Of a DNA stretch of 36,816 nucleotides, positions 5,507-32,420 are shown one piece after another (position 1 is the stretch's first letter; every line of letters starts with the position of its first letter). Source of the stretch: a virus; IMG/VR virus record IMGVR_UViG_3300037485_000671, positions 1-36,816 of that record; one strand, given 5' to 3'. A program made the translations under genes and the position numbers. Under the pieces are notes generated by a model, which made no database searches, had not been told where the DNA came from, and worked only from the letters and a program-made list of their open reading frames with translations.

Positions 5507-7377
5507 GTCACGTAATCTTCCGGCGGGACGTTATACATCTGCCTTGTGTCCGTAGCATTGGCAAACACGCTGCTTCCCGGCGCGTTGCCTTCGTTGTACG
5601 CGGTCGGCGAATACGTTCCAAGAAGCGTTTCGTTTGGCGCACCCCACGCACGAAGATCGGCCCCACCCGGCGTAGTGAACGTGTAGAAGCCAACGCCGGA
5701 CACCCCGCCGGAATCGTAAAGCGTGTAGTCACGCTCAAAGATGCCCGTGAACATCCGCTGTCCCTGCGCATCAAACTTGCCGGAAGTCACGCGCCAATCT
5801 TCAGACTTGACATACGCGTTGGTGGGGAGCGGTCGAATCTCCTTGGGAGGAGCCTGATTTGCCCGCGAAACTTCCACGCGCTCACGCACTCGCACTTCGG
5901 GCTTCTTCGTCTGAAACACGAAGTCAGCCGTGTCAACGTACATGGGAGACAAGCGGACAATGCCGCTGTCGTACTCCGTATGCGTAACCGAAGTCGTGCG
6001 CGGAACGATGGTGGCATAGTTTTCCGCATCCCGGGCGGGCTGCTTCTGCACACCTTGGAATGCTCCGGAGAACAGTTCGTTCATCGCGGCTACGCCGGAC
6101 GTACCCGCAACCACCGCCACAGTCACCGTACCAAACGTGTTTGATCCGGTCACGGAAAACAAAGTGGCCTGCGGCATTTCCGTTGCTTCAACATCAACCG
6201 GAGTAATGCCGTCAATTTCGTTTGCCAACCAATGCGGCATCATGCCGTAAGCGATTGGGCCTTCAAGACTTCCCGTAGGAGTAACCGCAGGTCCATAGGA
6301 ATCAACGCTGCGAGACACGCTGCGGGTAATGGTGAACTTCTGACCGATCATGTACGGGATGGTCAGGATGCCCGACTGCTCCGGATTGGATGCTGCGGTA
6401 ATCCACGCTTCCATCTCGTAGCGAATGGCAAACCCGGACAGCAGATTCTTCTCCGTCACGCGAAGGTTCTGAACAATGGTGTTCTTGTAGTCCACGTTCA
6501 AGCGCAACTTGGACAACTGCACCGCCGCTTCAATCAGTTTGCGATTGGGCGTGGTTCCCGAAATGTCCTTCAGATCCAAGGAGCCTTCAAGGTCGCAACT
6601 GAACTTGGCAACAGCGTAGGTTGAATGGTTAATCCCGCGCTCAATGCTGAATTCCATGTCACCGACCATCACGCCATCGGGCAGGTCATACGCAAGTCGC
6701 TTGTCAACGATGGAGTAAGTCAGCATCGTGCTATTGCTATCAAGCGCGAAGTCCTGCGATTCGCGCCGCCATCCTTCGCCAATGACAGGCGGAACAATTG
6801 CACGGCGAAACAGATCGGCATATGCCTCTTTGCCCTGCCAAACTGCCTTGGTTGCTGCGGTCGTAGACGAACCGCTTGTACCACGCGCAACGGTCAGCGT
6901 CCCGTTGATTGTTCGCGTTACATGGCCCGCCGCATCCATGCTCATGCGCTGCGTCCAACGGTGGGAAGTCACCGTTTGAGAGTCAACGTACGAACGCTGC
7001 GAAGTCACTTCAAAGCGAAGGATGGCGGTGTTCGCGCCGTAAATATGAGTCGCGCTTATCTTGACGAACGGGCCACCCGTGTCATCGTTCAACTTGGTTG
7101 CGTCAAACAATTCATCGTTTACCCCGGTCAGGCCATAAATAGACACCTGATATACACGATTGTTCGATGCCTTCAAAGAATCGCGCAGGGTTTCGTAATC
7201 ATTGCCCGCGCCGCCGCATTCAACAATGCACGTTCCGACGATGCGGAACTTCTGACCAATGGCATGGATGTTGTCTTCGGCGTACACGGCTTCCTGCGCG
7301 TACTCCTCAATCTGCAATCCCGGGAACGTGAAGAGACTCAACCCCTCGTCAACAAGAACATTGATTCGGCTTCCCAT
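5503..7377 (-). CDS. Large tail structural protein after tape measure
   Basis: 624 residues, mostly beta, no membrane segment. The N-terminus MGSRINVLVDEGLSLFTFPGL and the block DNIHAIGQKFRIVGTCIVECGGAGND resemble insertion-type beta domains of tail tip or distal tail proteins. The ATG overlaps the tape-measure stop by one base (TAATG), which suggests coupled translation. Position directly after the tape measure is where the distal tail protein lies in most siphoviruses, but 624 residues is long for that family, so it may combine several tip functions. Confidence 0.6.
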   Translation of the reverse strand: MGSRINVLVDEGLSLFTFPGLQIEEYAQEAVYAEDNIHAIGQKFRIVGTCIVECGGAGNDYETLRDSLKASNNRVYQVSIYGLTGVNDELFDATKLNDDTGGPFVKISATHIYGANTAILRFEVTSQRSYVDSQTVTSHRWTQRMSMDAAGHVTRTINGTLTVARGTSGSSTTAATKAVWQGKEAYADLFRRAIVPPVIGEGWRRESQDFALDSNSTMLTYSIVDKRLAYDLPDGVMVGDMEFSIERGINHSTYAVAKFSCDLEGSLDLKDISGTTPNRKLIEAAVQLSKLRLNVDYKNTIVQNLRVTEKNLLSGFAIRYEMEAWITAASNPEQSGILTIPYMIGQKFTITRSVSRSVDSYGPAVTPTGSLEGPIAYGMMPHWLANEIDGITPVDVEATEMPQATLFSVTGSNTFGTVTVAVVAGTSGVAAMNELFSGAFQGVQKQPARDAENYATIVPRTTSVTHTEYDSGIVRLSPMYVDTADFVFQTKKPEVRVRERVEVSRANQAPPKEIRPLPTNAYVKSEDWRVTSGKFDAQGQRMFTGIFERDYTLYDSGGVSGVGFYTFTTPGGADLRAWGAPNETLLGTYSPTAYNEGNAPGSSVFANATDTRQMYNVPPEDYVT

Positions 7378-8408
7378 TAGATGTCACCGTATTCCTTCCC
7401 GGTCATAGATCGAATGTCATCCTTGAACCATTGACTGTTCATAAGCCCGGTTGCTTGCGCACGCCTGATGTCATCAACCGTGCTGTAAATCTTGGACAGG
7501 TATTGCTGCTGTGGTCCCAAAGCCGCAGACATAAAAGTCTGACCAATGAATCCAAGTACGCCCTGACTTTCTTCCGCAACCTTGCCAAGAGCAAACGAGA
7601 ACGGACGGAAAATGTAAGCAACCTGCCTTGACAATTCCGAATACATTGTTCCGCCAACAGCCGCAGCCCTGTTGAAGCCGATCATGCTTTCAGCCCATGC
7701 AACCTCTGCTTGCGTCTGCGCCCGGAGGGAACTTGCATACAACGCACCATTGGCTTGCGCCTCGCGCATGGTTGTAATCATCTTCGACAAATCGTCTTGC
7801 ACCTTCGCACCCATGAGGATGCCGCTGAATCGCCACGTTTGCTCAATGCGTTCGCTTGTGCGCTGAAAGGCTGAACGAAGCAAGGCAACCGCTCCAACGG
7901 CCAAGCCAATGCCGCCGCCAAAAGCAAGAAGCATCGGAGCAAGCCCTGCCGCCGAAATCCCAAGTCCCTTCAGGAACCCGGATGTCGCGCTGTTAGCGGA
8001 AGCCAACTGCGCAGCAGACATCAGCCCGGGGCGGGAAATGAACTGCTGCAATTCGCCAATCATGGACGTTGCGCCGGGAATCGCGCTCTGAATGTTTCGA
8101 TTGCCACCAAACCCGCGAATGGTCTGTTGTCTCCACAACTCAACATTTCGCCGCCAATCGTTCGCCATTCGTTCAAAGAGCATCGCAAACTGCCGACCGA
8201 AAACGGCGGTGTTTGCAATCTGCATTTGGGTGTACGGGCCAATGCCGGACGGATAGGCATTCAGGTTCGCACCAATACGCGCATTCGGGTTCGCCTGTGG
8301 CGTGAGCGGCGCGGGGCCACCACCAACATTACCGCTGCCACTACCGCCGCCACCACCACCGCCCAAGTCACGGACGTTGATGTTGATTGATCCAAGATCC
8401 TCTGCCAT
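7377..8408 (-). CDS. Putative tape measure protein (short)
   Basis: 343 residues with the ATG set by GGAGGTG 8 bases upstream. The N-terminus has a glycine/serine linker (GGGGGGGSGSGN), the middle a strongly hydrophobic stretch near residues 155-185 (AGLAPMLLAFGGGIGLAVGA), and the rest is helical and rich in A, Q and M. This mix plus the place after the frameshifted tail chaperones is typical of tape measure proteins, which set tail length. At about 1.5 angstroms per residue it would give a tail of only some 50 nm. No lytic domain is visible. Confidence 0.65.
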   Translation of the reverse strand: MAEDLGSININVRDLGGGGGGGSGSGNVGGGPAPLTPQANPNARIGANLNAYPSGIGPYTQMQIANTAVFGRQFAMLFERMANDWRRNVELWRQQTIRGFGGNRNIQSAIPGATSMIGELQQFISRPGLMSAAQLASANSATSGFLKGLGISAAGLAPMLLAFGGGIGLAVGAVALLRSAFQRTSERIEQTWRFSGILMGAKVQDDLSKMITTMREAQANGALYASSLRAQTQAEVAWAESMIGFNRAAAVGGTMYSELSRQVAYIFRPFSFALGKVAEESQGVLGFIGQTFMSAALGPQQQYLSKIYSTVDDIRRAQATGLMNSQWFKDDIRSMTGKEYGDI

Positions 8409-22916: not shown

Positions 22917-23201
22917 TCACACTACGTTCCTGCGCTTGTTGGTGATCTTGACACCCTTTCGCGTGCGAACGGCTATCAGGTCGTACCCGGCTGCGTCAAG
23001 CAGGGCAAGCGCAACGGTCAGGGTGGGGGTACTTGCGGTCGCTGATTCGGGCGGGGCAAGCACGGAATCCACCGTGTGTACGCGGCATAGGTCGTTGGCT
23101 GCACAGGCTTTGGCGAATCCGTAGCGCGAACTGTTGTCTTGCTCAAGCGCGGCCATGATGGCTAGGCGAACGTCCTGCGGTGATTCGATGGAATGCTTCA
23201 C
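22917..23201 (-). CDS. Small HTH-like protein on a leaderless mRNA
   Basis: 94 residues, GTG start at 23201. Helical N-terminus (P-Q-D-V-R-L-A-I-M-A-A-L, R-Y-G-F-A-K-A-C), then T-P-T-L-T-V-A-L-A-L-L-D-A-A-G-Y-D-L, a pattern seen in XRE-like phage regulators; the last residues are basic. The promoter at 23208-23235 puts +1 on the GTG, so no leader is made. It is the first gene before the terminase and late genes and may regulate them. DNA binding is inferred. Confidence 0.7.
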   Translation of the reverse strand: MKHSIESPQDVRLAIMAALEQDNSSRYGFAKACAANDLCRVHTVDSVLAPPESATASTPTLTVALALLDAAGYDLIAVRTRKGVKITNKRRNVV

Positions 23202-23207
23202 GCGTTG

Positions 23208-23235
23208 ATTATACCCGCTGCGCCGGGGCGGTCAA
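23208..23235 (-). promoter_or_regulatory. Consensus promoter before the packaging/structural operon
   Basis: TTGACC (23235-23230), 16-bp GC-rich spacer, perfect TATAAT (23213-23208). +1 falls about 7 bases on, at the G of the GTG start codon. Likely the start of transcription of the late operon, since no other good promoter is seen before the terminase. Confidence 0.82.
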
Positions 23236-23876: not shown

Positions 23877-23931
23877 GGCTCTGTCTCGTGTGCCGTCTAC
23901 CGGACGGTGCGGGCCAAGCGACCTGCTTGAC
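23877..23931 (-). promoter_or_regulatory. Double-hairpin mRNA leader, AGGUC loop
   Basis: Predicted 5-prime leader. Hairpin 1: CAAGC, loop AGGTC, GCTTG (23929-23915). Hairpin 2: CCGTC, loop CGGTA, GACGG (23907-23893). A weak ACGAGACA site follows, then ATG 23876. Confidence 0.75.
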
Positions 23932-23937
23932 TCCTGA

Positions 23938-23965
23938 AGGATACCCCCTGTTCCGGCGTGGTCAA
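23938..23965 (-). promoter_or_regulatory. Promoter with GC-rich spacer (unit 23876-23272)
   Basis: TTGACC (23965-23960), 16-bp spacer, TATCCT (23943-23938). +1 near 23931, one or two bases before hairpin 1. Exactly 14 bases upstream of the -35 box lies the inverted repeat aatccgatggattta (plus strand, 23979-23993), in the same place as at two other promoters. Confidence 0.75.
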
Positions 23966-24013
23966 GGGGGTAGAGGTGAATCCGATGGATTTATGTCAAA
24001 ATCTTTGAGTGCC

Positions 24014-24062
24014 AATAAACCGCCCGTGAGCGCGGCACTTCCTGTGGGCGGGTCACGGGCGG
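24014..24062 (-). terminator. Intrinsic terminator after the Gp157-like gene
   Basis: CCGCCCGTGA (24062-24053) and TCACGGGCGG (24029-24020) form a perfect 10-bp stem around a 23-base loop, followed by TTTATT. It ends the ERF operon 40 bases after the last stop. Confidence 0.75.
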
Positions 24063-24104
24063 GAGACGAGCCGCCGAAGCGGCAAGCGAAGAATTGGCTT
24101 GAGT

Positions 24105-24608
24105 CTAGCGTATGCGGAGCGAAGTTCCACGGGGAAGCAGTTCACAACCGGGAACTTTCTCGCCAGATTCAAGCACGGCGCGGATGGCATCCTTGTCCGG
24201 CTCCTGCACGATCCGGGTCAGGATGGGCGGCAGGGTTACTTCCGGGTCGATGCGTAGGGGCTGCTTGCCTCCGTTGCCCGCCACGGTGAACGCAAAGCGT
24301 GTGGTTTGGAACTTGGTCTTGCCCGTGCGCTCCATCGCTTCCTTCAGCCGTTCCCGGAGCCTATCCGAAAGCGCGGTGTCGGTATCGGCAAGTGCGCGAA
24401 GCCTCTTGGCTTCCTGCGTCCGCGCCGCTGCGCGTGCGGTCAGTTCGGTAATGACGGATGCGTAGCCTTCCGCTTTCTGCTCAAGCGCGGCATCCATCCC
24501 GGCAAGATGCTCTTCAAGCGCGGCGGCTGCTTCCGGGGAATCAACACCACCTTCAAGCATGATGGAAACGATGCTTTCAATCTCTGTCGTGAGTGCGTAC
24601 AGGCTCAT
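24105..24608 (-). CDS. Siphovirus Gp157-like protein
   Basis: 167 residues, ATG overlapping the previous stop by 4 bases, AAGGAG upstream. Helical and coiled first half (M-S-L-Y-A-L-T-T-E-I-E-S-I-V-S), then A-K-R-L-R-A-L-A, K-T-K-F-Q-T-T-R-F-A-F-T-V-A and P-E-V-T-L-P-P-I-L: the pattern of Gp157 phage proteins (Pfam PF05565), reported in phage resistance contexts and often next to single-strand annealing genes, as here. Confidence 0.8.
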   Translation of the reverse strand: MSLYALTTEIESIVSIMLEGGVDSPEAAAALEEHLAGMDAALEQKAEGYASVITELTARAAARTQEAKRLRALADTDTALSDRLRERLKEAMERTGKTKFQTTRFAFTVAGNGGKQPLRIDPEVTLPPILTRIVQEPDKDAIRAVLESGEKVPGCELLPRGTSLRIR

Positions 24609-24877
24609 GTGTTGTTCTCCTTGAAGCAGTCCCACCCCAAATCTTTCGCAACGCTGCTTGGCAAAATTTCAAACGCTCCGGCAAGCGAGCGACTTGCGCA
24701 AACCATCCGCCTCGCCTCATCGCGCTCGGCGCGGAGCCGTTCGATCTCGTCGGCGGCGAGCAAGTTTGTGCGCGTCAATTCAAAACCAAGTTGAGGTTTG
24801 CCAAACTCGTTAATCCGGGAGGTTGGTTGGTAGAAAGACTCGCGCCGTAGCCGGGTCACGATGTCGGATGCTGTCAT
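24605..24877 (-). CDS. Small protein with GWDCFK C-terminal module
   Basis: 90 residues, ATGA-coupled at both ends. Residues 37-90 hold A-A-D-E-I-E-R-L-R-A-E-R-D-E-A-R-R-M-V-C and then G-W-D-C-F-K-E, a module shared with genes at 26121 and 30373. The N-terminus (D-I-V-T-R-L-R-R-E-S-F) is unlike theirs. Third gene of the ERF operon. Function unknown. Confidence 0.72.
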   Translation of the reverse strand: MTASDIVTRLRRESFYQPTSRINEFGKPQLGFELTRTNLLAADEIERLRAERDEARRMVCASRSLAGAFEILPSSVAKDLGWDCFKENNT

Positions 24878-25194
24878 GGCTTCAACCTCCAAACCTTGAT
24901 GCTTCGTCCGTGCGTAGACGCACGCTCTGACGGGACTACCTGCCCCGTCCATTCAAACTGCCCACGGAACACGCTTCCGGCGGCGTTGCCCAACTCCGCG
25001 TAGTTCATCCCGATCTGCGCCATGCGGAACGCAACATCATCGGAAGTGACGCTGCCCTTGGATATGGCAATTCGATGAGCAAGGTTCTTCGCAGTAGCGA
25101 GGAGTTGCGGACAGGCGGCAGCGGCTCTTGCCATGCCGCTTTCCTTGCGGCGTAGTGTTTCGGCGTAGTCAAACAGGTCAGAAGGGCAATGCAT
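24874..25194 (-). CDS. Small protein, possible winged-helix domain
   Basis: 106 residues overlapping the ERF gene end by 17 bases. Region 45-106 reads G-S-V-T-S-D-D-V-A-F-R-M, G-S-V-F-R-G-Q-F-E-W-T-G and a C-terminal H-G-R-S-I-K-V-W-R-L-K; this pattern recurs in phage replication/recombination operons and looks like a winged helix. DNA binding is inferred from that and from the operon. Confidence 0.68.
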   Translation of the reverse strand: MHCPSDLFDYAETLRRKESGMARAAAACPQLLATAKNLAHRIAISKGSVTSDDVAFRMAQIGMNYAELGNAAGSVFRGQFEWTGQVVPSERASTHGRSIKVWRLKP

Positions 25195-26008
25195 CGGATT
25201 CCTCCTTCCGTGCTGCCGGAGCGGAGGGGGTCAGCACGCGCATGACTTCTAGCGCGGGGCCGACACGCGCAACGTCAAGGCGCAGGGTCTTGCCCGTGGC
25301 TTCCTTGGCAACTTCGGCATAGCCGTCAACCTTGGTGGAGATCCAAACCCGGCCATGCTCCCCGGCGGCGTGAATAGCGTGGGGCTTGCCCGGGCGCGTG
25401 GTCACGCGCAGGATTTCAAAGTCGCCTTCGTACTCGTCCGGGTACTTGTCCATCACGCCCGCAGACGGGCTAGGAGCCGCCTTGGCGGGTTCCTGCTTCT
25501 CCGGGGCTTCCCGGGCGGGTTCCGGCACAGGGGCCGCTCCCCGGGCATTCTCCGGGCGGAACGTATCCCGCGTGGTGCGCTGCTGCGCCTTGCGCCGCTC
25601 GTTGTGTTCCTGACGGTCTTCGTCCCCGTCATCGTCCTCATGGGGGTCACCCACAATCGCGCACAGGCTGATGAGGCTGTACCGCCGCAGGTAGGTGACC
25701 ACGCTTCCGGCCTGTTGCACGTTGCTGTTCCCGGCGATGGGAAACGCCATCGTTTCCCGCATCCATTCGCCGGACGCGTGAATCAGGCTTGTGGTAACGG
25801 CCACGCGGTTTTCAGCAATCGCCACGCTCTGCATCAGCGCGATGCCCTGCTTTGCCATCGGCTTTCGCACGGCATTCAGCACGGCGGCAAGCGTTGCGAA
25901 GCGTGACTTGAAGTGCGGGTTCACGCCGTCAAGTTCGGGGTTGTCAATCTCAAGATGCGCCTTCGCAAGTGCTGCTGCGATGGCTCCGGTTGTCTCGCTC
26001 GTTTCCAT
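25178..26008 (-). CDS. erf: ERF-family single-strand annealing protein
   Basis: 276 residues from ATG 26008 (AAGGAGA upstream). Core residues 20-130 match ERF proteins: F-A-T-L-A-A-V-L-N-A-V-R-K-P, V-T-T-S-L-I-H-A-S-G-E-W-M, Q-A-G-S-V-V-T-Y-L-R-R-Y-S-L and the acidic D-D-D-G-D. It pairs complementary single strands in phage recombination and genome circularisation. A long P/A/E linker (140-185) precedes a C-terminal domain of about 80 residues that may bind partners. First gene of a four-gene operon. Confidence 0.9.
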   Translation of the reverse strand: METSETTGAIAAALAKAHLEIDNPELDGVNPHFKSRFATLAAVLNAVRKPMAKQGIALMQSVAIAENRVAVTTSLIHASGEWMRETMAFPIAGNSNVQQAGSVVTYLRRYSLISLCAIVGDPHEDDDGDEDRQEHNERRKAQQRTTRDTFRPENARGAAPVPEPAREAPEKQEPAKAAPSPSAGVMDKYPDEYEGDFEILRVTTRPGKPHAIHAAGEHGRVWISTKVDGYAEVAKEATGKTLRLDVARVGPALEVMRVLTPSAPAARKEESDALPF

Positions 26009-26056
26009 GTGTGTCTCCTTGCCCGGTTCGCCGGGTGCGTTGCCGCATCGTGCGGC
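26009..26056 (-). promoter_or_regulatory. Structured leader of the ERF mRNA
   Basis: Starts with GCCGCA-CGA-TGCGGC (26056-26042), at the predicted +1, so again a 5-terminal hairpin, but without the AGGTC loop. Then CCCGG-CGAA-CCGGG (26035-26022) and AAGGAGACACAC before the ATG. Confidence 0.7.
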
Positions 26057-26062
26057 GGTTTC

Positions 26063-26090
26063 ATTATACACCCGGCTACGCCGGGGTCAA
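26063..26090 (-). promoter_or_regulatory. Consensus promoter of the ERF operon
   Basis: TTGACC (26090-26085), 16-bp spacer containing the palindrome CCGGC-GTA-GCCGG, perfect TATAAT (26068-26063). Confidence 0.85.
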
Positions 26091-26093
26091 GCA

Positions 26094-26112
26094 GGGGCGG
26101 TCGCATCGCCCC
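26094..26112 (-). terminator. Hairpin between upstream gene and ERF promoter
   Basis: GGGGCG, loop ATGCGAC, CGCCCC, 9 bases after a stop codon and 4 bases before TTGACC. No U tract; similar in place to 23236-23261. Confidence 0.45.
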
Positions 26113-26120
26113 CGATTTCC

Positions 26121-26591
26121 TCAATCCATTTCCATCTGCTCACCGCGCATCCACGCGGGGATGTCGTTGTCCTTGGCAGGGGCGGTCGGCGTTTCGTCCT
26201 GCGACTTAAAGCAATCCCATCCGTTGAAGTCTGCAAGGTCTTCGGGCGTGTCGTATTCGCTGTGCCTTGCAGCAAATACGCAATACATCCGGCGTGCGTT
26301 GTCGCGCTCTTCGCGCAGCAGTTCCGTCTGCGCGGGAGCAGGAACGCCAACCCCGGCAAGGTTCTTGTGCGCCATGACAGCAGCGGCGTTTGCGCGGTCA
26401 AACGCTTCAAGCAGTCCATCAATCGCGGGCAGCATCCCTTCGTAAACAGCAGCAACCTTGTGGCAATTCGCTGCTTGGTACGCATCGCTTGCCTTGCGGA
26501 TTGCGCCCATGAGTTGAGCAAGGTTCTTCATGTTCTCAACAACGGCGCGGTCGGTCTTCTCAAGGCTGCTGCGGGTGGCTTCGTTCTTCAT
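26121..26591 (-). CDS. Protein with GWDCFK module, unknown function
   Basis: 156 residues from ATG 26591. Helical first two thirds (K-N-L-A-Q-L-M-G-A-I-R-K-A-S-D-A-Y), then the module E-E-R-D-N-A-R-R-M-Y-C ... G-W-D-C-F-K, and a tail D-I-P-A-W-M-R-G-E-Q. Single gene behind an AGGTC-leader promoter. Shares the module with genes 24605 and 30373 only. Function unknown. Confidence 0.72.
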   Translation of the reverse strand: MKNEATRSSLEKTDRAVVENMKNLAQLMGAIRKASDAYQAANCHKVAAVYEGMLPAIDGLLEAFDRANAAAVMAHKNLAGVGVPAPAQTELLREERDNARRMYCVFAARHSEYDTPEDLADFNGWDCFKSQDETPTAPAKDNDIPAWMRGEQMEMD

Positions 26592-26649
26592 GGCTCTGTC
26601 TCTCCTAGTTCCCGGTTCGCCGGGTGCGGCGGGCGCGACCTGCGCCCAC
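26592..26649 (-). promoter_or_regulatory. Double-hairpin mRNA leader, AGGUC loop
   Basis: Hairpin 1: GGGCGC, loop AGGTC, GCGCCC (26647-26631). Hairpin 2: CCCGG, loop CGAA, CCGGG (26624-26611). Then ACTAGGAGAGACAGAGCC and ATG 26591. Confidence 0.78.
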
Positions 26650-26655
26650 ACCGGA

Positions 26656-26684
26656 ATAGTAACGCCCCTTTGGGGCGGGGTCAA
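26656..26684 (-). promoter_or_regulatory. Promoter with palindromic spacer (gene 26121)
   Basis: TTGACC (26684-26679), 17-bp spacer with the perfect palindrome CGCCCC-AAA-GGGGCG, TACTAT (26661-26656). The -35 box lies 2 bases past the upstream gene. Confidence 0.75.
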
Positions 26685-26685
26685 G

Positions 26686-27096
26686 TCACATAGTGGGATT
26701 TTCTTGGTTTTTCTTTTTCCCCGTCTTGGGGGTGTCGGTCACCACCCGGCCCGGGCTGAACGGGTCGTAGATTTCCCACGTTTCCCCGTTCCACTTGGCA
26801 TCAAGGTTGGTGAGCAGGTCGCCGTTCTCCTTGGAATCCTCCGGGTGAACTTCGTAGACGTACAGGTCAAGCGTGTAGCCGGGTGCAATCTCCTCGCTGA
26901 TGTCTTCAACAACGTAGGTGTGGTTCAGGTCTGAATCCTCCGGCCACTTGGTGCTGTCAAACGTAAGAACCTGATTCTTGAATTCGCGGTTGCCTGTCAT
27001 GTCGCGCTCCCCGGCTTCCACCATCATCCGGGTTCCAAAGTAGGCGCGAACGGCGCGGCGGATGGAGGCGGCATCGTGACGATTGAACTTTCGCAT
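26686..27096 (-). CDS. Acidic protein of unknown function
   Basis: 136 residues from ATG 27096, 7 bases after GGAG (ATG 27102 is too close to it). N-terminus basic and helical (M-R-K-F-N-R-H-D-A-A-S-I-R-R-A-V-R-A-Y-F-G-T-R), middle beta-rich (N-H-T-Y-V-V-E-D-I-S-E-E-I), tail lysine-rich. Second gene of the unit at 27588. No family recognised. Confidence 0.65.
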   Translation of the reverse strand: MRKFNRHDAASIRRAVRAYFGTRMMVEAGERDMTGNREFKNQVLTFDSTKWPEDSDLNHTYVVEDISEEIAPGYTLDLYVYEVHPEDSKENGDLLTNLDAKWNGETWEIYDPFSPGRVVTDTPKTGKKKNQENPTM

Positions 27097-27123
27097 AGTC
27101 ATGCTCCTTTCTTGATTCGTGAT

Positions 27124-27588
27124 TCAAGCGTTGATAGCGGCACGGGCGTTGGCATACGCCTTGGCTGCGGAAATGGCATCTGCCCACTTCTCGCACTCTT
27201 CGCCGGACAGGATGGCGGAATCATGCGCGAAGGCAAGCAGCGCAAGCGCAGCGGCCTTGCAGACATCGGCCTGTTCCCGGGTGTTGTTGCCTTCGGCAAG
27301 CGTTCCGCACAATGCGCCGATACGCGCAATCAACTGCCCCTTGTAGTCAACATCATGCTTCGCAGTTTCCGGGGTTACGTCCAAGTCGTATGCGGCATCG
27401 AACGCCGACAGGATGCCCGCTGACTCCGGCAGGTACACGGTGTGCAATTGCTGCACGCGCTTGCCCTTCCCGGCAAGCCAATTGCAGAACCCGGTGCGCA
27501 GCACGCGAACAAGGCTGTTCAGCGCGGTGAACTCCGAAACGGTCAGGTCGATGCGGTAGGACTCACGGGTCGGGCGGGTGATCTTCAT
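27124..27588 (-). CDS. Helical protein of unknown function with AGGTC leader
   Basis: 154 residues from ATG 27588. An N-terminal strand (M-K-I-T-R-P-T-R-E-S-Y-R-I-D-L-T-V-S-E) is followed by long alanine-rich helices. Cys residues at three places without metal motif. First gene behind promoter 27650-27677 and a leader. Function unknown. Confidence 0.68.
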   Translation of the reverse strand: MKITRPTRESYRIDLTVSEFTALNSLVRVLRTGFCNWLAGKGKRVQQLHTVYLPESAGILSAFDAAYDLDVTPETAKHDVDYKGQLIARIGALCGTLAEGNNTREQADVCKAAALALLAFAHDSAILSGEECEKWADAISAAKAYANARAAINA

Positions 27589-27643
27589 GGCTGTGTCTCC
27601 TAGTCCCGCGTCCGGCGGGTGCGGGTCAAGCGACCTGCTTGAC
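27589..27643 (-). promoter_or_regulatory. Double-hairpin mRNA leader, AGGUC loop
   Basis: Hairpin 1: GTCAAGC, loop AGGTC, GCTTGAC (27643-27625), its first base at the predicted +1. Hairpin 2: CCCGC, loop CGGAC, GCGGG (27619-27605). Then GACTAGGAGACACAGCC and the ATG. Confidence 0.8.
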
Positions 27644-27649
27644 TCCTGA

Positions 27650-27677
27650 AAGATACACCATCCCCGAACGGGGTCAA
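27650..27677 (-). promoter_or_regulatory. Promoter with palindromic spacer (unit 27588-26686)
   Basis: TTGACC (27677-27672), 16-bp spacer holding CCCC-GTT-CGGGG across its start, TATCTT (27655-27650). Fourteen bases upstream of the -35 box is the inverted repeat aaatccgggtggattt (27691-27706, plus strand), which overlaps the stop codon of the nuclease gene. Confidence 0.75.
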
Positions 27678-27704
27678 GGGGGGTAGGGGTAAATCCGGGT
27701 GGAT

Positions 27705-28136
27705 TTATTTCAATTTGTGGAGGGGCCGGAATGCGGTCAGGGGGATAAATTCGCACAACTCCATATCCTGCGGGTCGTTACGGTCATTCCGACCGTTTCG
27801 GGAGCGGCGAAATGTTTTTTCTCCCAAGTGCAATAGCCCCACCCCGTCCGGCCAACCAACGAGCAGGTACGCAGCGCAGGGCATCTCTTGCGCCAGTTCG
27901 CGCAGCGTGTCTACCTTGGCCGCGCCAATCATGTAGTACGCGAATCGGTGCATGGCGCATTGCCGCGCCTTGACTTCGACTATTGCAACGGTCTTGCCGT
28001 GCTGCGTGAACGCGAAGTCATACGGGGCTTGCGGCTCTGTCTCCACGCATTGCAGGTCGGGGCGTTCGCGCTGCATGAACGCAATCAGTTGCCGTTGCCT
28101 TGCCCGGTCTTCTTGTCGCTCGTACAGGGGACGCAT
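27705..28136 (-). CDS. PD-(D/E)XK-like nuclease
   Basis: 143 residues, helical start (Q-L-I-A-F-M-Q-R-E-R-P-D), then Y-D-F-A-F-T-Q-H-G-K-T-V-A-I-V-E-V-K-A-R-Q near residues 39-59: Asp40 followed by E-V-K is the PD-(D/E)XK catalytic pattern. The later L-L-V-G-W strand fits the fold. A VRR-NUC or resolvase-like nuclease in recombination next to ERF and RusA genes is likely. No clear SD; the gene follows a terminator, so its promoter was not found. Confidence 0.65.
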   Translation of the reverse strand: MRPLYERQEDRARQRQLIAFMQRERPDLQCVETEPQAPYDFAFTQHGKTVAIVEVKARQCAMHRFAYYMIGAAKVDTLRELAQEMPCAAYLLVGWPDGVGLLHLGEKTFRRSRNGRNDRNDPQDMELCEFIPLTAFRPLHKLK

Positions 28137-28146
28137 TGCGTCACAA

Positions 28147-28185
28147 GAATAAACCCGGGCGGGATCTTTCGATCAACCGCCCGGG
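28147..28185 (-). terminator. Intrinsic terminator after the DUF932-like gene
   Basis: CCCGGGCGG (28185-28177) with CCGCCCGGG (28062-28154 side at 28162-28154), perfect 9-bp stem around a 14-base loop, followed by TTTATTC. Confidence 0.78.
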
Positions 28186-28238
28186 CTTCCGGGGGCAAAA
28201 GAATCGGGGGGCCGTCCGTAGCCTCCCCTGTCTCCATC

Positions 28239-29252
28239 TTACATCATCTTCCCTGCGATGGCGAACGCGTCAGCGGTCGCCTCTGCGGTCTGCCCAACCC
28301 ACGCGGCGTACTTGCGCTCCGCTGCGTCCTTGGTGCGGACAGCCCATCCGGCGCGAAGGTGCTGAATTGCGCTTGTAGCGGCATTGGTGGCCGTCCACAG
28401 GTTCGCGCCGTATTCCTGCGATTCGCGGTCAAACGTCTGCGCGGCGTGCGCAAGGAAAGCAACTGCCTTTTCCTTACGGTTGAGTTCCCAACCGTTGGAC
28501 GGGGCGGCGGGAATCTCGCCGTCAAGTTGCGTCAGGACATCAGACCACAGGTTGCGCACGGTTTCACGGTTGACCTGCTTCGTTGCCATCGCGGTGGCAA
28601 TCTTGCGCCCGTTGTCAATGTCGGAGAACCAACGCTTGATGTCGGTTGCAAGGCTCTCAACCTTGGTTCCGATGTTGAGCGTGTGCCGGAAAGACCATCC
28701 GGCGCGGCCCGACAGGGCAGCGTGGAACGTGTTGCTGCACACCACGCGAACGGAGGTGGGCAGCACGCGCAGGGCCATCGTGCCATCGTGCGAGTTGCCA
28801 ATCATCAGATAGGGCTGCGCAATGTCGCCGCGTCCGGTCATGTCAACAGACGGGGCGCGAAGCAGCATCCACACCTTGCGACCACCGCGAATGCTCCCGG
28901 CGGATTCGACTTCCACGCCCTGCGAATCGCCTGCGAGGCGGAAGCCGTATGCAAGGTCGGCAAGCGTGGTGTTCTGAATCGGCTGATAGTCGCCGCCGAC
29001 CACCGCGAGGACGGAATGGTCATCGGAGCGGACAAGCATCTTGCTGCCGTCCGTGGACACGCGGTACTCGTCATCCTCGCCGGGGTTGTAGATGCCCGTG
29101 AGCGTGTCCGACTCTTCAACCGTCCATTCCATCCCGGCGATGCGGAGCGCGGCGAACGGGTTCGGCGCACCCTTGACCACCGTTCCAAGACCGTGCCACG
29201 CGGCGTTGTCTGCGAGAACCAAACCATCGTTGCTGTAGATTTCTGCTGCCAT
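28239..29252 (-). CDS. DUF932 / TIGR03299-like phage protein
   Basis: 337 residues from ATG 29252 (AGGAGA upstream). N-terminus has A-W-H-G-L-G-T-V-V, the diagnostic start of DUF932 (phage/plasmid-like TIGR03299) proteins, then D-H-S-V-L-A-V-V-G-G-D-Y, F-R-L-A-G-D-S, I-R-G-G-R-K-V-W-M and T-V-R-N-L-W-S. The family is common in phages and plasmids and has no proven function. Monocistronic: AGGTT-leader promoter in front, terminator behind. Confidence 0.85.
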   Translation of the reverse strand: MAAEIYSNDGLVLADNAAWHGLGTVVKGAPNPFAALRIAGMEWTVEESDTLTGIYNPGEDDEYRVSTDGSKMLVRSDDHSVLAVVGGDYQPIQNTTLADLAYGFRLAGDSQGVEVESAGSIRGGRKVWMLLRAPSVDMTGRGDIAQPYLMIGNSHDGTMALRVLPTSVRVVCSNTFHAALSGRAGWSFRHTLNIGTKVESLATDIKRWFSDIDNGRKIATAMATKQVNRETVRNLWSDVLTQLDGEIPAAPSNGWELNRKEKAVAFLAHAAQTFDRESQEYGANLWTATNAATSAIQHLRAGWAVRTKDAAERKYAAWVGQTAEATADAFAIAGKMM

Positions 29253-29309
29253 TGCTAGTGTCTCCTGTTTCCCCAAACCGGGGGAGCGGTGCGGGCAACC
29301 TGCCCACAC
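29253..29309 (-). promoter_or_regulatory. Double-hairpin mRNA leader, AGGUU loop
   Basis: Hairpin 1: GTGTGGGC, loop AGGTT, GCCCGCAC (29309-29289, one U.G). Hairpin 2: TCCCC, loop CGGTTT, GGGGA (29285-29270). Then AACAGGAGACACTAGCA and the ATG. Confidence 0.75.
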
Positions 29310-29313
29310 CGGA

Positions 29314-29341
29314 ACTATACACCCCCTTGCGGCGTGGTCAA
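29314..29341 (-). promoter_or_regulatory. Promoter with GC-rich spacer (gene 28239)
   Basis: TTGACC (29341-29336), 16-bp spacer, TATAGT (29319-29314). The upstream box aatttcgacagattt starts 14 bases from the -35 box (29355-29369, plus strand). Confidence 0.8.
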
Positions 29342-29379
29342 GGGGGTGGATGGGAATTTCGACAGATTTATTTGGCGGG

Positions 29380-29838
29380 CTATTCGTGTTCGTAAACCCA
29401 CCTGCCGGAAGCCGGGGCCGGGGCAAGGTTGATGACTGCGCCCGAACGCTGCCCGGGCGTAGCCCACACGCGCTCAATGGCAAGAACGGCTATCTGCCGA
29501 TCATCGTGGTACGCAATCCCGGTCAACGCATCCCCGATAGCGCGAATCAATTTGTCGCAGTCTGCCTTGCCGGGACGCGCTGCCGCGCTCTGCTTCACCG
29601 TTCCATCTTTGCGGAAGTGCGATGCGGGGCGCACGAAGCGCACGCACGCGTACAAGGCAACGTCACCTTCAAACATCGGGCAACTCTGCGCGGTCGCTGC
29701 GTCACTCACGCAAGCGCGCCACGGCTTTACCTTCTTGCTGTTCTCTAGCATGATGGTGCGGCCCGTTTTCAGCGTCACCAATCGCTTGCTGCCTTGCGCG
29801 GCGGGATCGCCGTCAACGTAGATGGTTGCGCTTGTCAT
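29380..29838 (-). CDS. rusA: RusA-like Holliday junction resolvase
   Basis: 152 residues. R-P-G-K-A-D-C-D-K-L-I-R-A-I-G-D-A-L-T-G near residues 88-107 and Y-H-D-D-R-Q-I (110-116) give the RusA acidic residues (Asp93, Asp95 and Asp112/113), which cut four-way junctions. Lys/Arg early strands fit as well. Last gene of the nine-gene overlapping operon; its start overlaps the previous stop (ATGA). Confidence 0.88.
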   Translation of the reverse strand: MTSATIYVDGDPAAQGSKRLVTLKTGRTIMLENSKKVKPWRACVSDAATAQSCPMFEGDVALYACVRFVRPASHFRKDGTVKQSAAARPGKADCDKLIRAIGDALTGIAYHDDRQIAVLAIERVWATPGQRSGAVINLAPAPASGRWVYEHE

Positions 29839-30104
29839 CCTTGCCCTTCGTACATTGCCTTGTCCATCTGCTTCTTCAACAGTTCGCCGTGTTCGGTGGC
29901 AAGTTCCTTGATGTACGTCAGCAACCTCTGCTGCTCGTCACGAAGGGTGTGAATGGTCGATGCGGCTTCATCAAGCAACGCTGCGTCCTTCATGTCCTGT
30001 TCGCGGTAGTGCGGATACTCCGCAGAGTCCTCAATCGGAATATCCGACCATGACTCTCGCGTTTCCTTTGCCCGTGCTGCAAGCCGCTCAACAACGTCAG
30101 TCAT
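29835..30104 (-). CDS. Coiled-coil small protein
   Basis: 89 residues, acidic, mostly one or two long helices (A-S-T-I-H-T-L-R-D-E-Q-Q-R-L-L-T-Y-I-K-E) of coiled-coil type. Coupled by ATGA overlap at both ends to operon neighbours. No family recognised. Confidence 0.65.
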   Translation of the reverse strand: MTDVVERLAARAKETRESWSDIPIEDSAEYPHYREQDMKDAALLDEAASTIHTLRDEQQRLLTYIKELATEHGELLKKQMDKAMYEGQG

Positions 30105-30376
30105 CGCTTCCCCTTTGAGAATTGAACCATCTCGTTTGTCATGTCATCGAACCATTCCGGATCAGGCAAACCGTTGCATCGGTGTTCCATGTATTGATCG
30201 TTCTGCGAATGCACAACGCAAACATGAGTACGTCCGGGTGAGCAAGTGAAGATCACCCCATCATCATCAACTGCAATGAAGCCGCGTTCGGTCTTGCCAA
30301 CCGTGAATCCTTGGCTGCGCAAGTGATCCATCAGGACGCTTCGCTTGTCAATCGTTGGATGGCTTGCAGTTGTCAT
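30101..30376 (-). CDS. Small protein of unknown function
   Basis: 91 residues, alpha/beta look: R-S-V-L-M-D-H-L-R-S-Q-G-F-T-V-G, then strands F-I-A-V-D-D-D-G-V-I-F-T and H-V-C-V-V-H, then a helix. ATGA-coupled on both sides. No family recognised. Confidence 0.65.
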   Translation of the reverse strand: MTTASHPTIDKRSVLMDHLRSQGFTVGKTERGFIAVDDDGVIFTCSPGRTHVCVVHSQNDQYMEHRCNGLPDPEWFDDMTNEMVQFSKGKR

Positions 30377-30612
30377 GCTTCACCCTTAAAGCAACTCCAC
30401 CCGCGTTCACACGCAATTGCTTGTGGGTCGCCGTGATGAGCGGTCGCCATCCGGCACACCTCTTGTCTTGCCTCGTCACGCTCCTCACGAAGCGCGTCAA
30501 TGAACGTCATCAGTTCGCCAATCTCGTTCTTGTTGATGAAAGCAAACTCACCCCGGCGCAGCATTCCTTCCTGCTGCCTCTTCAGGTGTTGCACGATTGA
30601 TGGCTCGTTCAT
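30373..30612 (-). CDS. Small protein with GWSCFK module
   Basis: 79 residues. Residues 40-79 hold A-L-R-E-E-R-D-E-A-R-Q-E-V-C ... G-W-S-C-F-K, the same module as in genes 24605 and 26121 (Ser instead of Asp). The N-terminus is different. ATGA-coupled. Function unknown. Confidence 0.68.
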   Translation of the reverse strand: MNEPSIVQHLKRQQEGMLRRGEFAFINKNEIGELMTFIDALREERDEARQEVCRMATAHHGDPQAIACERGWSCFKGEA

Positions 30613-30806
30613 GCGGATGGCTCCATGTCTTCAATCTGAACTACAACGGCTTCCATCGTCTTCGCATGACGCGTGCCTTTGATGATGCGGGAAACGCTTG
30701 CCTGTGAAACACCGTGCTTGCGGGCAATGTCGTTCTGCTTGACCCCCGCCGCCTTCTGATCCCGAATCGACTTGACAACCTCTTCTGTCAACTTGCTCTT
30801 ACGCAT
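30609..30806 (-). CDS. Small HTH protein, resolvase/Hin-type helix-turn-helix
   Basis: 65 residues from ATG 30806 (AAAGGA upstream). T-E-E-V-V-K-S-I-R-D-Q-K-A-A-G-V-K-Q-N-D-I-A-R-K-H-G-V-S-Q is a clear homeodomain-like HTH as in invertase C-termini, followed by a short acidic tail. No catalytic domain, so a DNA-binding regulator rather than a recombinase. Confidence 0.78.
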   Translation of the reverse strand: MRKSKLTEEVVKSIRDQKAAGVKQNDIARKHGVSQASVSRIIKGTRHAKTMEAVVVQIEDMEPSA

Positions 30807-31041
30807 GATCGTCCTTTCGCTTTCTGACCCGTAGGTAAGCGGGAATAGCCCGGTCAATGCTTGTTCCCGTTGCGTCATACCAATCTGTCAAGTTCAACAT
30901 TGCTTCGTATGCGGTTTCCGGTTCGCACTCCCCCCGTTCTGCCGCGTCCATGACACGCTTCATGGCGCGTTCGTGCGCCATGCGCTGTTGTTCTTGTCCT
31001 CTATGGCGCGAGTTTTCCACGCCGTTTACGTTACTGCTCAT
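30799..31041 (-). CDS. Small charged protein of unknown function
   Basis: 80 residues, helical and charged (R-A-M-K-R-V-M-D-A-A-E-R-G-E, Y-E-A-M-L-N-L-T-D-W-Y), with a basic tail. ATGA overlap with the MarR-like gene; overlaps the HTH gene by 8 bases. No family recognised. Confidence 0.65.
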   Translation of the reverse strand: MSSNVNGVENSRHRGQEQQRMAHERAMKRVMDAAERGECEPETAYEAMLNLTDWYDATGTSIDRAIPAYLRVRKRKDDHA

Positions 31042-31385
31042 CTATTCAACCCTTCCCCGTTTGTCAATGCTTTCCTGACGCGCTGCGCAATCACCTTGCC
31101 GCGCAATGTCGTGGTCAGCAACTTCTGCGTCTTCTTGTAGGGGTTGGTTGTGCTGTTCAACATCCCTAAATTTGCCATTGCCGTAACGCTATGGCAAACC
31201 GTAGTAAGAGCCGTGCCTGTCTCGTCCGCGATGACGGATACCGATGTCCCTTCCGGGAACGCCATTGCCGTACAGAACACGCGGACATCAAGCAGGGAAA
31301 GCCGGGTGTCCTCCTCCCGGAAGATGTCCATGACAACAGACAGCCGCAGGAACAATTCCGGATCAGCCACATAGGGGGGGATCAT
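31038..31385 (-). CDS. MarR-like winged-helix protein
   Basis: 115 residues. R-L-S-L-L-D-V-R-V-F-C-T-A-M-A (28-42), G-T-S-V-S-V-I-A-D-E-T-G-T-A-L-T-T-V-C-H (46-65: helix-turn-helix) and N-L-G-M-L (72-76) followed by a wing and a C-terminal helix are the MarR plan; the dimer helices are short. DNA binding likely; ligand unknown. ATGA-coupled to the CsrA-like gene before it, making a two-regulator pair. Confidence 0.68.
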   Translation of the reverse strand: MIPPYVADPELFLRLSVVMDIFREEDTRLSLLDVRVFCTAMAFPEGTSVSVIADETGTALTTVCHSVTAMANLGMLNSTTNPYKKTQKLLTTTLRGKVIAQRVRKALTNGEGLNR

Positions 31386-31618
31386 TCCGGAACCTCCGCG
31401 TGTGGGATGCGGGTAACGGATACGAAGCGCGGGGCAACAACACGGATACGCGCACGCTTGGCGGCGGAACCGCAGCGGCAACCCTTGATGCTGTCGGCCA
31501 GTTCGATGTAGACCGGGACAGGATCGCCGTCCGGGTTGTGTGCAAGAAGAGTGATTGCCTCGCCGTTGTCCTTGCCCATCTTCAACGTCAGAACGAGATG
31601 CCCTAGGTTAGTTGTCAT
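31382..31618 (-). CDS. CsrA-like RNA-binding protein
   Basis: 78 residues from ATG 31618, overlapping the previous gene by 11 bases. H-L-V-L-T-L-K-M-G-K (7-16) matches the CsrA start L-x-L-T-R-K-x-G-E, and A-R-I-R-V-V-A-P-R-F-V-S-V-T-R (56-70) matches the CsrA core V-R-I-G-x-x-A-P-x-x-V-x-V-x-R; Arg70 would be the RNA-contact Arg44 of CsrA. An insert of some 15 residues with G-C-R-C-G lies between. CsrA proteins bind GGA in hairpin loops and block or aid translation. Likely targets include the phage leaders (see findings). Identity is inferred from sequence pattern only. Confidence 0.55.
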   Translation of the reverse strand: MTTNLGHLVLTLKMGKDNGEAITLLAHNPDGDPVPVYIELADSIKGCRCGSAAKRARIRVVAPRFVSVTRIPHAEVPE

Positions 31619-31979
31619 CGGGCCACTCCACGTTGATGATGTCGCCTTGAAAGTACGCCGGAATCCATTCGGATACCAAGTACGTGGACAAGATGGTTGT
31701 CCAACGCTCCTTGGCGTTTTCGACCGACATAGGCGCGTACGGAACCTTGGCCGCGAAGACAAACGCAACGGGTTCGTTGTCGCCGTCCTTCATCACCAAA
31801 CGGGAAGACAGGCTCCACCGTTCCGATGCGCTGCCCTCAACCTCTACGCGCTCGTACATGGCGTGGGAGTCAAGCCCCATGACAATCATGTCATCGGAAC
31901 GCGTCATCACTTCGCGTTCAATGCGCTCCCGGTCTTCTGCGGTCGGCTCTACTTCTTTCCAATCAAATTGATCTTGCAT
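31608..31979 (-). CDS. Acidic protein of unknown function
   Basis: 123 residues from ATG 31979, 8 bases after AAGGA (ATG 31988 has no spacing to it). Acidic helical start (F-D-W-K-E-V-E-P-T-A-E-D-R-E-R-I-E-R-E), then beta-rich (R-W-S-L-S-S-R-L-V-M-K-D-G, V-A-F-V-F-A-A-K-V-P-Y) and a helix with W-T-T-I-L-S-T-Y. First gene of the nine-gene operon after a terminator-like hairpin; no strong promoter seen just before it. No family recognised. Confidence 0.65.
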   Translation of the reverse strand: MQDQFDWKEVEPTAEDRERIEREVMTRSDDMIVMGLDSHAMYERVEVEGSASERWSLSSRLVMKDGDNEPVAFVFAAKVPYAPMSVENAKERWTTILSTYLVSEWIPAYFQGDIINVEWPDDN

Positions 31980-31997
31980 GGTGTCCATCCTTGGAGG

Positions 31998-32027
31998 GGA
32001 AAGGGGGCGGGCACATGGCCCGCCCCC
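31998..32027 (-). terminator. Hairpin between zinc-ribbon gene and regulator operon
   Basis: GGGGGCGGGC (32027-32018) with GCCCGCCCCC (32012-32003), perfect 10-bp stem, loop CATGT, then CTTTCCCC. Weak U tract, so probably partial termination that lets promoter 32392 also feed the downstream operon. Confidence 0.6.
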
Positions 32028-32036
32028 GGGGTTGAG

Positions 32037-32330
32037 TCAGGCGTAGGCGATGTTCGCAACCTGCGAGTGAATGGAAACAATCTTCGCGGTATCGGCGGTG
32101 GCCGTGTCAGCGTTAGCGGCCTTCAGAGCAACATCAACGCCGTCAATCTGTTCCTGCGTGAAGTTGGAGCGGTAATCACTCATCATGTTTTCAATTTCCC
32201 CGGCAAGATCGCACGCGAGGCACAGGTCGCGGGTGCTTTCCTCGTTGCCCGTTTCGCGGGTGCGCTTGCCGCAGCACTCGCAGGTGTAGGTGGTGCTGTT
32301 GCGGCGGCGGGTGGTGAATCGGTTGCACAT
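32037..32330 (-). CDS. Zinc-ribbon protein with AGGTC leader
   Basis: 97 residues from ATG 32330 (AGGAGACA upstream). Y-T-C-E-C-C-G-K (15-22) and D-L-C-L-A-C-D (36-42) give two CxxC pairs, a zinc ribbon; the rest is helical and alanine-rich. First gene behind promoter 32392-32420. May bind nucleic acid or protein; function unknown. Confidence 0.75.
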   Translation of the reverse strand: MCNRFTTRRRNSTTYTCECCGKRTRETGNEESTRDLCLACDLAGEIENMMSDYRSNFTQEQIDGVDVALKAANADTATADTAKIVSIHSQVANIAYA

Positions 32331-32385
32331 GGCTCTGTCTCCTAGTCCCGCGTCCGGCGGGGGCGGTTCGGGCGACCTGCCCGAC
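32331..32385 (-). promoter_or_regulatory. Double-hairpin mRNA leader, AGGUC loop
   Basis: Hairpin 1: TCGGGC, loop AGGTC, GCCCGA (32384-32368), at the predicted +1. Hairpin 2: CCCGC, loop CGGAC, GCGGG (32361-32347). Then GACTAGGAGACAGAGCC and the ATG. Confidence 0.8.
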
Positions 32386-32391
32386 ACGCAT

Positions 32392-32420
32392 ACTGTAACA
32401 CCCCCCTTGGGCGTGGTCAA
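32392..32420 (-). promoter_or_regulatory. Promoter with GC-rich spacer (zinc-ribbon gene)
   Basis: TTGACC (32420-32415), 17-bp spacer with CGCCC-AA-GGGGG, TACAGT (32397-32392). Head of the early/middle region. Confidence 0.78.

Follow-up and report, generated by a model that had tools for sequence, protein, structure and literature searches.

Hairpin-first leaders at the early promoters of a group of uncultured phages

Early promoters and their leaders

The sequence analyzed here, called the window throughout, is the IMG/VR record IMGVR_UViG_3300037485_000671, 36,816 bases of viral DNA. Early-type genes encoding Erf, RusA, DUF932, Gp157 and PDDEXK proteins occupy its minus strand between 23 and 33 kb, and the terminase, portal and other structural genes are found at lower coordinates. 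A consensus scan of the window, under promoter rules that we set ourselves, identified seven sigma-70-type promoters on the minus strand, each made of TTGACC, 16–17 nucleotides (nt) and TAnnnT. After six of the seven comes a leader of 48–58 nt with a common layout: a hairpin (H1), a short linker in which CCG is near-invariant, a second hairpin (H2), a GAGACA-type ribosome site and an ATG (Table 1). The promoter DNA, the linker and the ribosome site are also alike between the leader copies.

Five of these leaders had been picked out earlier from the letters of the sequence, as transcripts that begin with a covarying hairpin and keep an AGGUC or AGGUU loop (the original prediction), and the leaders, stems and loops lie where they had been placed. 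With the predicted +1 set at 7 nt after the −10 hexamer, the five start at 32385, 29307, 27643, 26649 and 23931; four of these starts agree with those first suggested, and the other had been put 2 nt away, near 29309, with outer GT/AC pairs in its stem that lie upstream of +1. The ribosome site of the leader ending at 23877 is ACGAGACA and not AGGAGACA, as had been thought. All five leaders proved real, and a sixth with the same layout, that of the Erf gene (26056–26009), had been missed because its H1 loop is ACGAT, not AGGTY.

Table 1 Promoters and leader hairpins of the window, with the sequence elements and evidence for each
Feature	Position	Strand	Description and evidence
Promoter 1	32392..32420	-	TTGACC, 17 nt, TACAGT; consensus scan
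H1, leader 1	32367..32385	-	+1 at 32385; stem TCGGGC/GCCCGA, loop AGGTC (32378-32374); sequence, fold, R1 72 bits
H2, leader 1	32347..32361	-	CCCGC-CGGAC-GCGGG, then AGGAGACA, ATG 32330
Promoter 2	29314..29341	-	TTGACC, 16 nt, TATAGT; consensus scan
H1, leader 2	29291..29307	-	GTGGGC-AGGTT-GCCCGC from +1; fold, R1 53.7 bits
H2, leader 2	29270..29285	-	TCCCC-CGGTTT-GGGGA, then AGGAGACA, DUF932 gene ATG 29252
Promoter 3	27650..27677	-	TTGACC, 16 nt, TATCTT; consensus scan
H1, leader 3	27625..27643	-	GTCAAGC-AGGTC-GCTTGAC from +1; fold, R1 71.8 bits
H2, leader 3	27605..27619	-	CCCGC-CGGAC-GCGGG, then AGGAGACA, ATG 27588
Promoter 4	26656..26684	-	TTGACC, 17 nt, TACTAT; consensus scan
H1, leader 4	26629..26649	-	GTGGGCGC-AGGTC-GCGCCCGC from +1; fold, R1 54.9 bits
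H2, leader 4	26611..26624	-	CCCGG-CGAA-CCGGG, then AGGAGAGACA, ATG 26591
Promoter 5	26063..26090	-	TTGACC, 16 nt, TATAAT; consensus scan
H1, leader 5 (Erf gene)	26042..26056	-	GCCGC-ACGAT-GCGGC from +1; fold z -3.3, R1 25 bits
H2, leader 5	26022..26035	-	CCCGG-CGAA-CCGGG, then AAGGAGACA, Erf ATG 26008
Promoter 6	23938..23965	-	TTGACC, 16 nt, TATCCT; consensus scan
H1, leader 6	23913..23931	-	GTCAAGC-AGGTC-GCTTGGC from +1; fold, R1 64 bits
H2, leader 6	23893..23907	-	CCGTC-CGGTA-GACGG, then ACGAGACA, ATG 23876
Promoter 7, leaderless	23201..23235	-	TTGACC, 16 nt, TATAAT; GTG of gene 22917-23201 at predicted +1

Loops of the AGGTC/AGGTT type closed by at least 5 pairs occur exactly five times on the two strands of the whole 36.8-kb window, all of them in the five leaders first reported, and dinucleotide shuffles gave 0.7 on average (maximum 4). 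All five hairpins have at least 6 pairs, a bar at which the shuffles gave 0.23 (maximum 2). A covariance model, R1, scored the five leaders at 54–72 bits, the Erf leader at 25 bits and the rest of the window at noise level (~10 bits or less); since R1 was built partly from the five leaders, what is informative here is the Erf score and the absence of other matches.

Covariation of the two stems

Related uncultured phages, represented by fragmentary contigs, were gathered by pattern scans of viral contigs, an alignment search with DUF932 and an alignment search with the major capsid protein (names beginning with G or L are our handles for these contigs and loci). Their early proteins are roughly 30–70% identical, and their capsid proteins mostly 72–79%. 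The leaders recur in these phages, and alignment of the homologs kept the covariation on which the original prediction had staked its claim of an RNA element rather than a DNA site. When the H1 and H2 stems of 25 leaders were taken jointly, 92% of the pairs were kept versus 63.6% after shuffling, with 72 versus 23 double-change cells and changes on both sides at 11 of the 12 pairs. For H1 alone, 34 distinct hairpins from about ten lineages gave 91.2% versus 65.8% paired and 59 versus 16.3 double-change cells, and for H2 alone, 22 distinct hairpins gave 92.5% versus 58.6% and 30 versus 10; both of these sets were gathered as hairpins, which biases the percentage paired upward and makes the both-side changes the stronger evidence. 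The shuffles leave relatedness in place, so that none of these figures is to be read as a probability, yet sliding the alignment, which keeps relatedness, made every version collapse.

The covarying pairs are drawn from different genes and from different phages. For example, the leaders of the Erf orthologs from seven lineages have seven different sequences, and the hairpin is kept in all of them (an alignment of the Erf leaders by themselves was misaligned and was not used). Because the stems covary, H1 and H2 are supported as an element that acts at the RNA level.

Position of H1 and the leaderless genes

A hairpin of at least 5 bp was found near +1 at 53 of the 57 sites in 13 phages that combine a promoter, a ribosome-binding site (RBS) and an open reading frame (ORF), versus 3.5 in shuffled leaders (standard deviation 1.9, maximum 9 over 200 rounds). 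We set the scoring cut-off ourselves, and it was the leader or R1 that had led to most of the contigs. In four phages picked by capsid homology, without an R1 match, all 15 of the 15 sites had the +1 hairpin. The count of 57 leaves out the capsid-related contigs G026, G033, G040 and G053, which offered one or no usable promoter and RBS site each and no hairpin at any. In 37 of the 53 hairpin sites, the first paired base lies 6–7 nt after the −10 hexamer.

The predicted +1 is independently supported, because leaderless genes have their start codons at exactly 6 nt after the −10 hexamer. This is the case for the gene at 22917–23201 of the window and its orthologs in G003, G004, G005, G007 and G027, and also for two other small genes, which lack H1. 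Judged by these positions, the transcripts of the group tend to open with a hairpin or with a start codon, with no free 5′ tail either way. The orthologs of gene 22917–23201 are located at L177:6933, L143:2902, L138:2211, L179:7237 and L282:9616.

Conserved loops and separable modules

An invariant AGGUC loop had been proposed for H1; across the phage group the loop is instead A-N-G-N-Y in most leaders (AGGTC, AAGTC, ATGTC, ACGTC, ACGCC, AAGCC, AAGAT, ACGAT, ACGTT, ATGGT and AGGTT). A comes first in 50 of the 53 and a pyrimidine last in 51. The exceptions are AATCC, ACAAC and GCGGT, and six-base loops (AATGAC, ATTGAC and AATAAC) are found in G027 and G036. In the five-base set the closing pair is C-G without exception, and loop positions 1, 3 and 5 are at least 90% fixed, whereas stem positions show up to five pair types. 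Some loops are specific to a lineage and common to the leaders of one genome, such as AAGAT three times in G015 and AATGAC/ATTGAC in G027.

H2, which the original prediction had described as a second hairpin just before the ribosome site, is present and covaries, but it has a loop of its own, CGG[AT]N (also given as CGGAN), with the variants CGGGA and CGAA, and does not form one leader structure with H1. Hairpins with a CGG[AT]N loop stand before a ribosome site and start codon 34 times in these phages, versus 0–2 times for each of five control loops. H1 goes with promoters and H2 with ribosome sites. Two leaders of G001 and leaders of G025, G027 and G036 have H1 without H2, and H2 is found without H1 before DUF932 and other genes in G002, G004, G005 and L188, mostly after a GC-rich intercistronic hairpin. 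Because each occurs without the other, H1 and H2 are separate modules.

Two roles for the loops were considered and rejected. A kissing interaction between the AGGUC and CGGAC loops (GUC with GAC) would not be available to G015 (AAGAU and CGGAC) or G001 (AGGUC or AAGUC and CGGAA), whose loops cannot pair. The H1 loop as a mimic of the Shine-Dalgarno sequence (AGGU) would lose its complementarity in AAGUC, AAGAU and ACGCC.

Distribution and database searches

Every true match of the leader pattern scans fell within this phage group, and the view that a set of phage genes shares the element is supported. A further 85 records (821 kb, most of them selected for the bare loop pattern, plus HK022) gave a single match with E < 0.01, L017, which lies inside a reading frame and is attributed to chance. 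The same holds for L147, the sole match when 84,980 genomes of bacteria and archaea were scanned for the exact pattern; there AGGTC is part of the stem of another hairpin. Matches of the loop-only pattern GGCAGGTYGCC...AGGAGA in viral contigs were also mostly due to chance.

No cultured relative was detected: the major capsid protein, a second structural protein and a 502-aa protein had no tblastn match in 50,697 phage records, and the matches of terminase and DUF932 were at most ~30% identical. The statement that no published family corresponds to the element was supported for Rfam, which gave nothing above the gathering threshold in the window, nothing at E values up to 1 when the leader region was searched and nothing in seven loci from related phages, and no published RNA family describing hairpin-first leaders was found in open-licence papers, an earlier description elsewhere being possible. 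In more distant DUF932 phages (L009:5666-5745 and 7309-7395, L193 and L195), hairpins with the loops GCCGT, GCGT and GCGTT were observed shortly after promoters. Hairpin-first early mRNAs may extend beyond this phage group.

Possible function of the leaders

The interpretation that we prefer, with a probability of about 0.45, is that H1 functions mainly as a 5′-terminal protector of the mRNA. Each early promoter would then give rise to an mRNA whose first 15–21 nt fold in vivo as H1, with no or almost no unpaired 5′ base. H1 would keep RNA pyrophosphohydrolase and 5′-end-dependent nucleases away from the triphosphate end, resulting in longer-lived early messages. H2, with its 5-bp GC stem and CGGAN loop, would end just before the Shine-Dalgarno sequence and keep the ribosome site out of other pairing, serving leaders and internal cistrons alike. 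Secondary structure at the 5′ end stabilises mRNA, because this end must be single-stranded for RppH and RNase E to act (PMC3997798). Protection fits a hairpin of free stem sequence that keeps strictly to +1 and recurs at nearly all early promoters, and the fixed +1 favors it in particular, since end protection needs this position and a generic binding hairpin does not. A stabiliser should stand at the 5′ end with 0–2 unpaired bases, and by the predicted +1 H1 does so, its first paired base being 6–7 nt after the −10 hexamer in 37 of the 53 sites. Protection alone would not demand the conserved ANGNY and CGGAN loops, which are most likely matched by a factor of the host or the phage, or by a favored fold of the loop.

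Several points weigh against protection. The folding energies of single leaders are ordinary, for DNA as rich in GC as this, in five of the six (z −0.2 to −1.8; −3.3 for the Erf leader), and therefore the case rests on covariation and position. In some leaders (G001 and G025), 1–3 nt would be left unpaired at the predicted 5′ end. Protection on its own gives no reason for the conservation of bases 1, 3 and 5 of the loop, and the host may have a decay pathway without enzymes of the RppH/RNase E type, the starts themselves being predicted.

The original prediction had named a protein-binding leader or a 5′ stabiliser, and these are still the two leading options. In the former, H1 and perhaps H2 would be the site for a phage or host RNA-binding protein that controls the translation or decay of the early regulon, with the loop being read and the stem presenting it. 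We consider this possible, if doubtful. Recognition is plausible in view of an ANGNY loop and a closing C-G that are kept while the stems change, of the frequency of the H2 loop before ribosome sites, and of the lineage-specific loops in G015 and G027, which look as if they were tracking a partner. However, no binding partner was found, protein-family searches giving no obvious RNA-binding protein common to all carriers; a recognition hairpin needs no +1 start; and the operators of T4 genes 32 and 43 occupy the ribosome site of a single gene or a small number of genes rather than the +1 of every early mRNA (PMC3014915). More speculatively, the leaders could belong to a phage-wide RNA regulon, in which the ANGNY loop of a short hairpin at the +1 of every early mRNA serves, much like a cap, as a tag for a single dedicated factor of phage or host origin, with lineage-specific pairs of loop and factor and with a separately used CGGAN hairpin that marks the ribosome site. 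The role of the tag within this joint scheme, which is just as speculative, would be protection, translation priority or antitermination.

A cis-acting antiterminator like put of HK022, where nascent hairpins bind RNA polymerase and allow read-through of terminators in the early operon, is unlikely. In its favor are the two hairpins that open the transcript, with their conserved loops and a CCG linker that hardly varies, and a strong terminator-like hairpin that lies inside the DUF932 unit at 28148–28190, with no promoter found between it and the next ORF; this terminator may simply be partial, though, and put needs both stems joined, whereas H1 and H2 occur apart. Nor does put require +1, putR being ~270 nt from its start site (PMC9378689), and R1 gave no match to HK022 with E up to 5. 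It is also rather improbable that a cassette of promoter and hairpins was spread by recombination, with a loop that is merely inherited and any stable hairpin sufficing. The likeness between copies extends to promoter DNA, linker and ribosome site and the carriers are all related phages, as copying would have it; yet without selection on the loop, stem and loop should diverge equally, which they do not, and the loop type is kept in orthologous leaders of lineages whose early proteins are as distant as given above. Least probable by far is that the inverted repeat serves as an operator in double-stranded DNA, immediately after the start site. The repeat does keep a fixed distance from promoters that also carry a dyad in their spacers, but its arms vary by site and still remain complementary, which is not required of a DNA site, and H2 behaves likewise and also occurs without a promoter.

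If H1 is indeed a protector, a phage can apparently build 5′-end protection of its mRNA into every early promoter. The kept loops point to a putative RNA-binding factor. A covariation-supported RNA element that is absent from Rfam marks the early transcripts of an uncultured phage group, and metagenomes could be searched with it for the early genes of such phages. The promoter and leader form a compact cassette that is directly testable in laboratory reporters.

Comparison with known systems

Early transcripts of lambda likewise carry, close to their start, a short stem topped by a conserved pentaloop (boxB of the nut sites). The loops of boxB are GNRA-like, in contrast to the A-N-G-N-Y loop of H1, which has no adjoining boxA and is present in six copies per genome. 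The boxA-like sequence CGCTCTTTA had two one-mismatch matches in the window (2390 and 12922); chance would give more, and neither is near a leader.

The 5′ stem-loops of the ompA/papA type share with H1 the location at the extreme 5′ end, the sequence-free stem and the few unpaired 5′ bases. The described cases belong to individual genes and have no loop in common, whereas here an ANGNY loop is found at nearly every early promoter of a phage group, together with H2 on the RBS side. In HK022 put, too, early phage transcripts have a pair of stem-loops at their start or close to it; the put stems are long, joined and bind RNA polymerase as one fold (PMC9378689), unlike the short, simple hairpins described here, which occur apart. 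The T4 gp43 and gp32 operators place RNA structure before a phage ribosome site, with a specific loop in the gp43 case, but they autoregulate the gene of the binding protein itself (PMC3014915), and the leaders here precede unrelated genes and have H1 tied to +1. The SAS/ESAS elements of cluster K mycobacteriophages occur in many copies ahead of the start codons of certain genes, and half of the copies have an inverted repeat upstream. The SAS itself is an unvarying sequence of 13 bp, and RNA pairing is not supported by the ESAS repeats (PMC3203893), whereas the repeats here covary as RNA. In the window, the 13-bp SAS sequence GGGATAGGAGCCC was matched twice, each time with 2 mismatches and not at a leader; shuffles average 0.6 such matches, and 11 of 100 have at least two.

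Other features of the early region

The −35/−10 spacers of the promoters at 32420, 29341, 27677, 26684, 26090, 23965 and 23235, and those of related phages, contain an inverted repeat, ACCCC-n-GGGGT, with a mean best repeat of 4.4 bp versus 3.07 (standard deviation 0.13) in shuffled sequences. This spacer repeat, unlike H1 and H2, would suit a DNA operator because its arms are largely constant.

The strong terminator-like hairpin at 28148–28190 (minus strand; −29.1 kcal/mol, z −5.3) is followed by UUUAUUCUU, with the tail TTTATTCTT. It sits between DUF932 and the PDDEXK gene (ATG 28136), ~14 nt before the next ORF, and the consensus scan found no promoter between the two. Partial termination or antitermination may be involved. 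A very GC-rich intercistronic hairpin, GGGGGCGGGC-n5-GCCCGCCCCC, is found at 32003–32030 (minus strand), and similar ones at L188:2925-2960 and in L175 and L143. These lie between genes one and two of leader-initiated units, have a short T-run or none, and in relatives are directly followed by H2.

The product of the gene behind leader 1 has 97 aa and, apart from a weak match to phrog_3633, matched nothing else. A small helix-turn-helix protein (HTH_3, phrog_517) is encoded at 30609–30803 on the minus strand, and in G001 a leaderless gene of a similar helix-turn-helix type (L182:6140-6346) is located upstream of RusA. The AlphaFold model of the product of gene 22917–23201 (pLDDT 77) weakly resembles XRE/HipB-type helix-turn-helix proteins (best Foldseek E 0.25), and this gene, directly upstream of the packaging genes, could encode a regulator.

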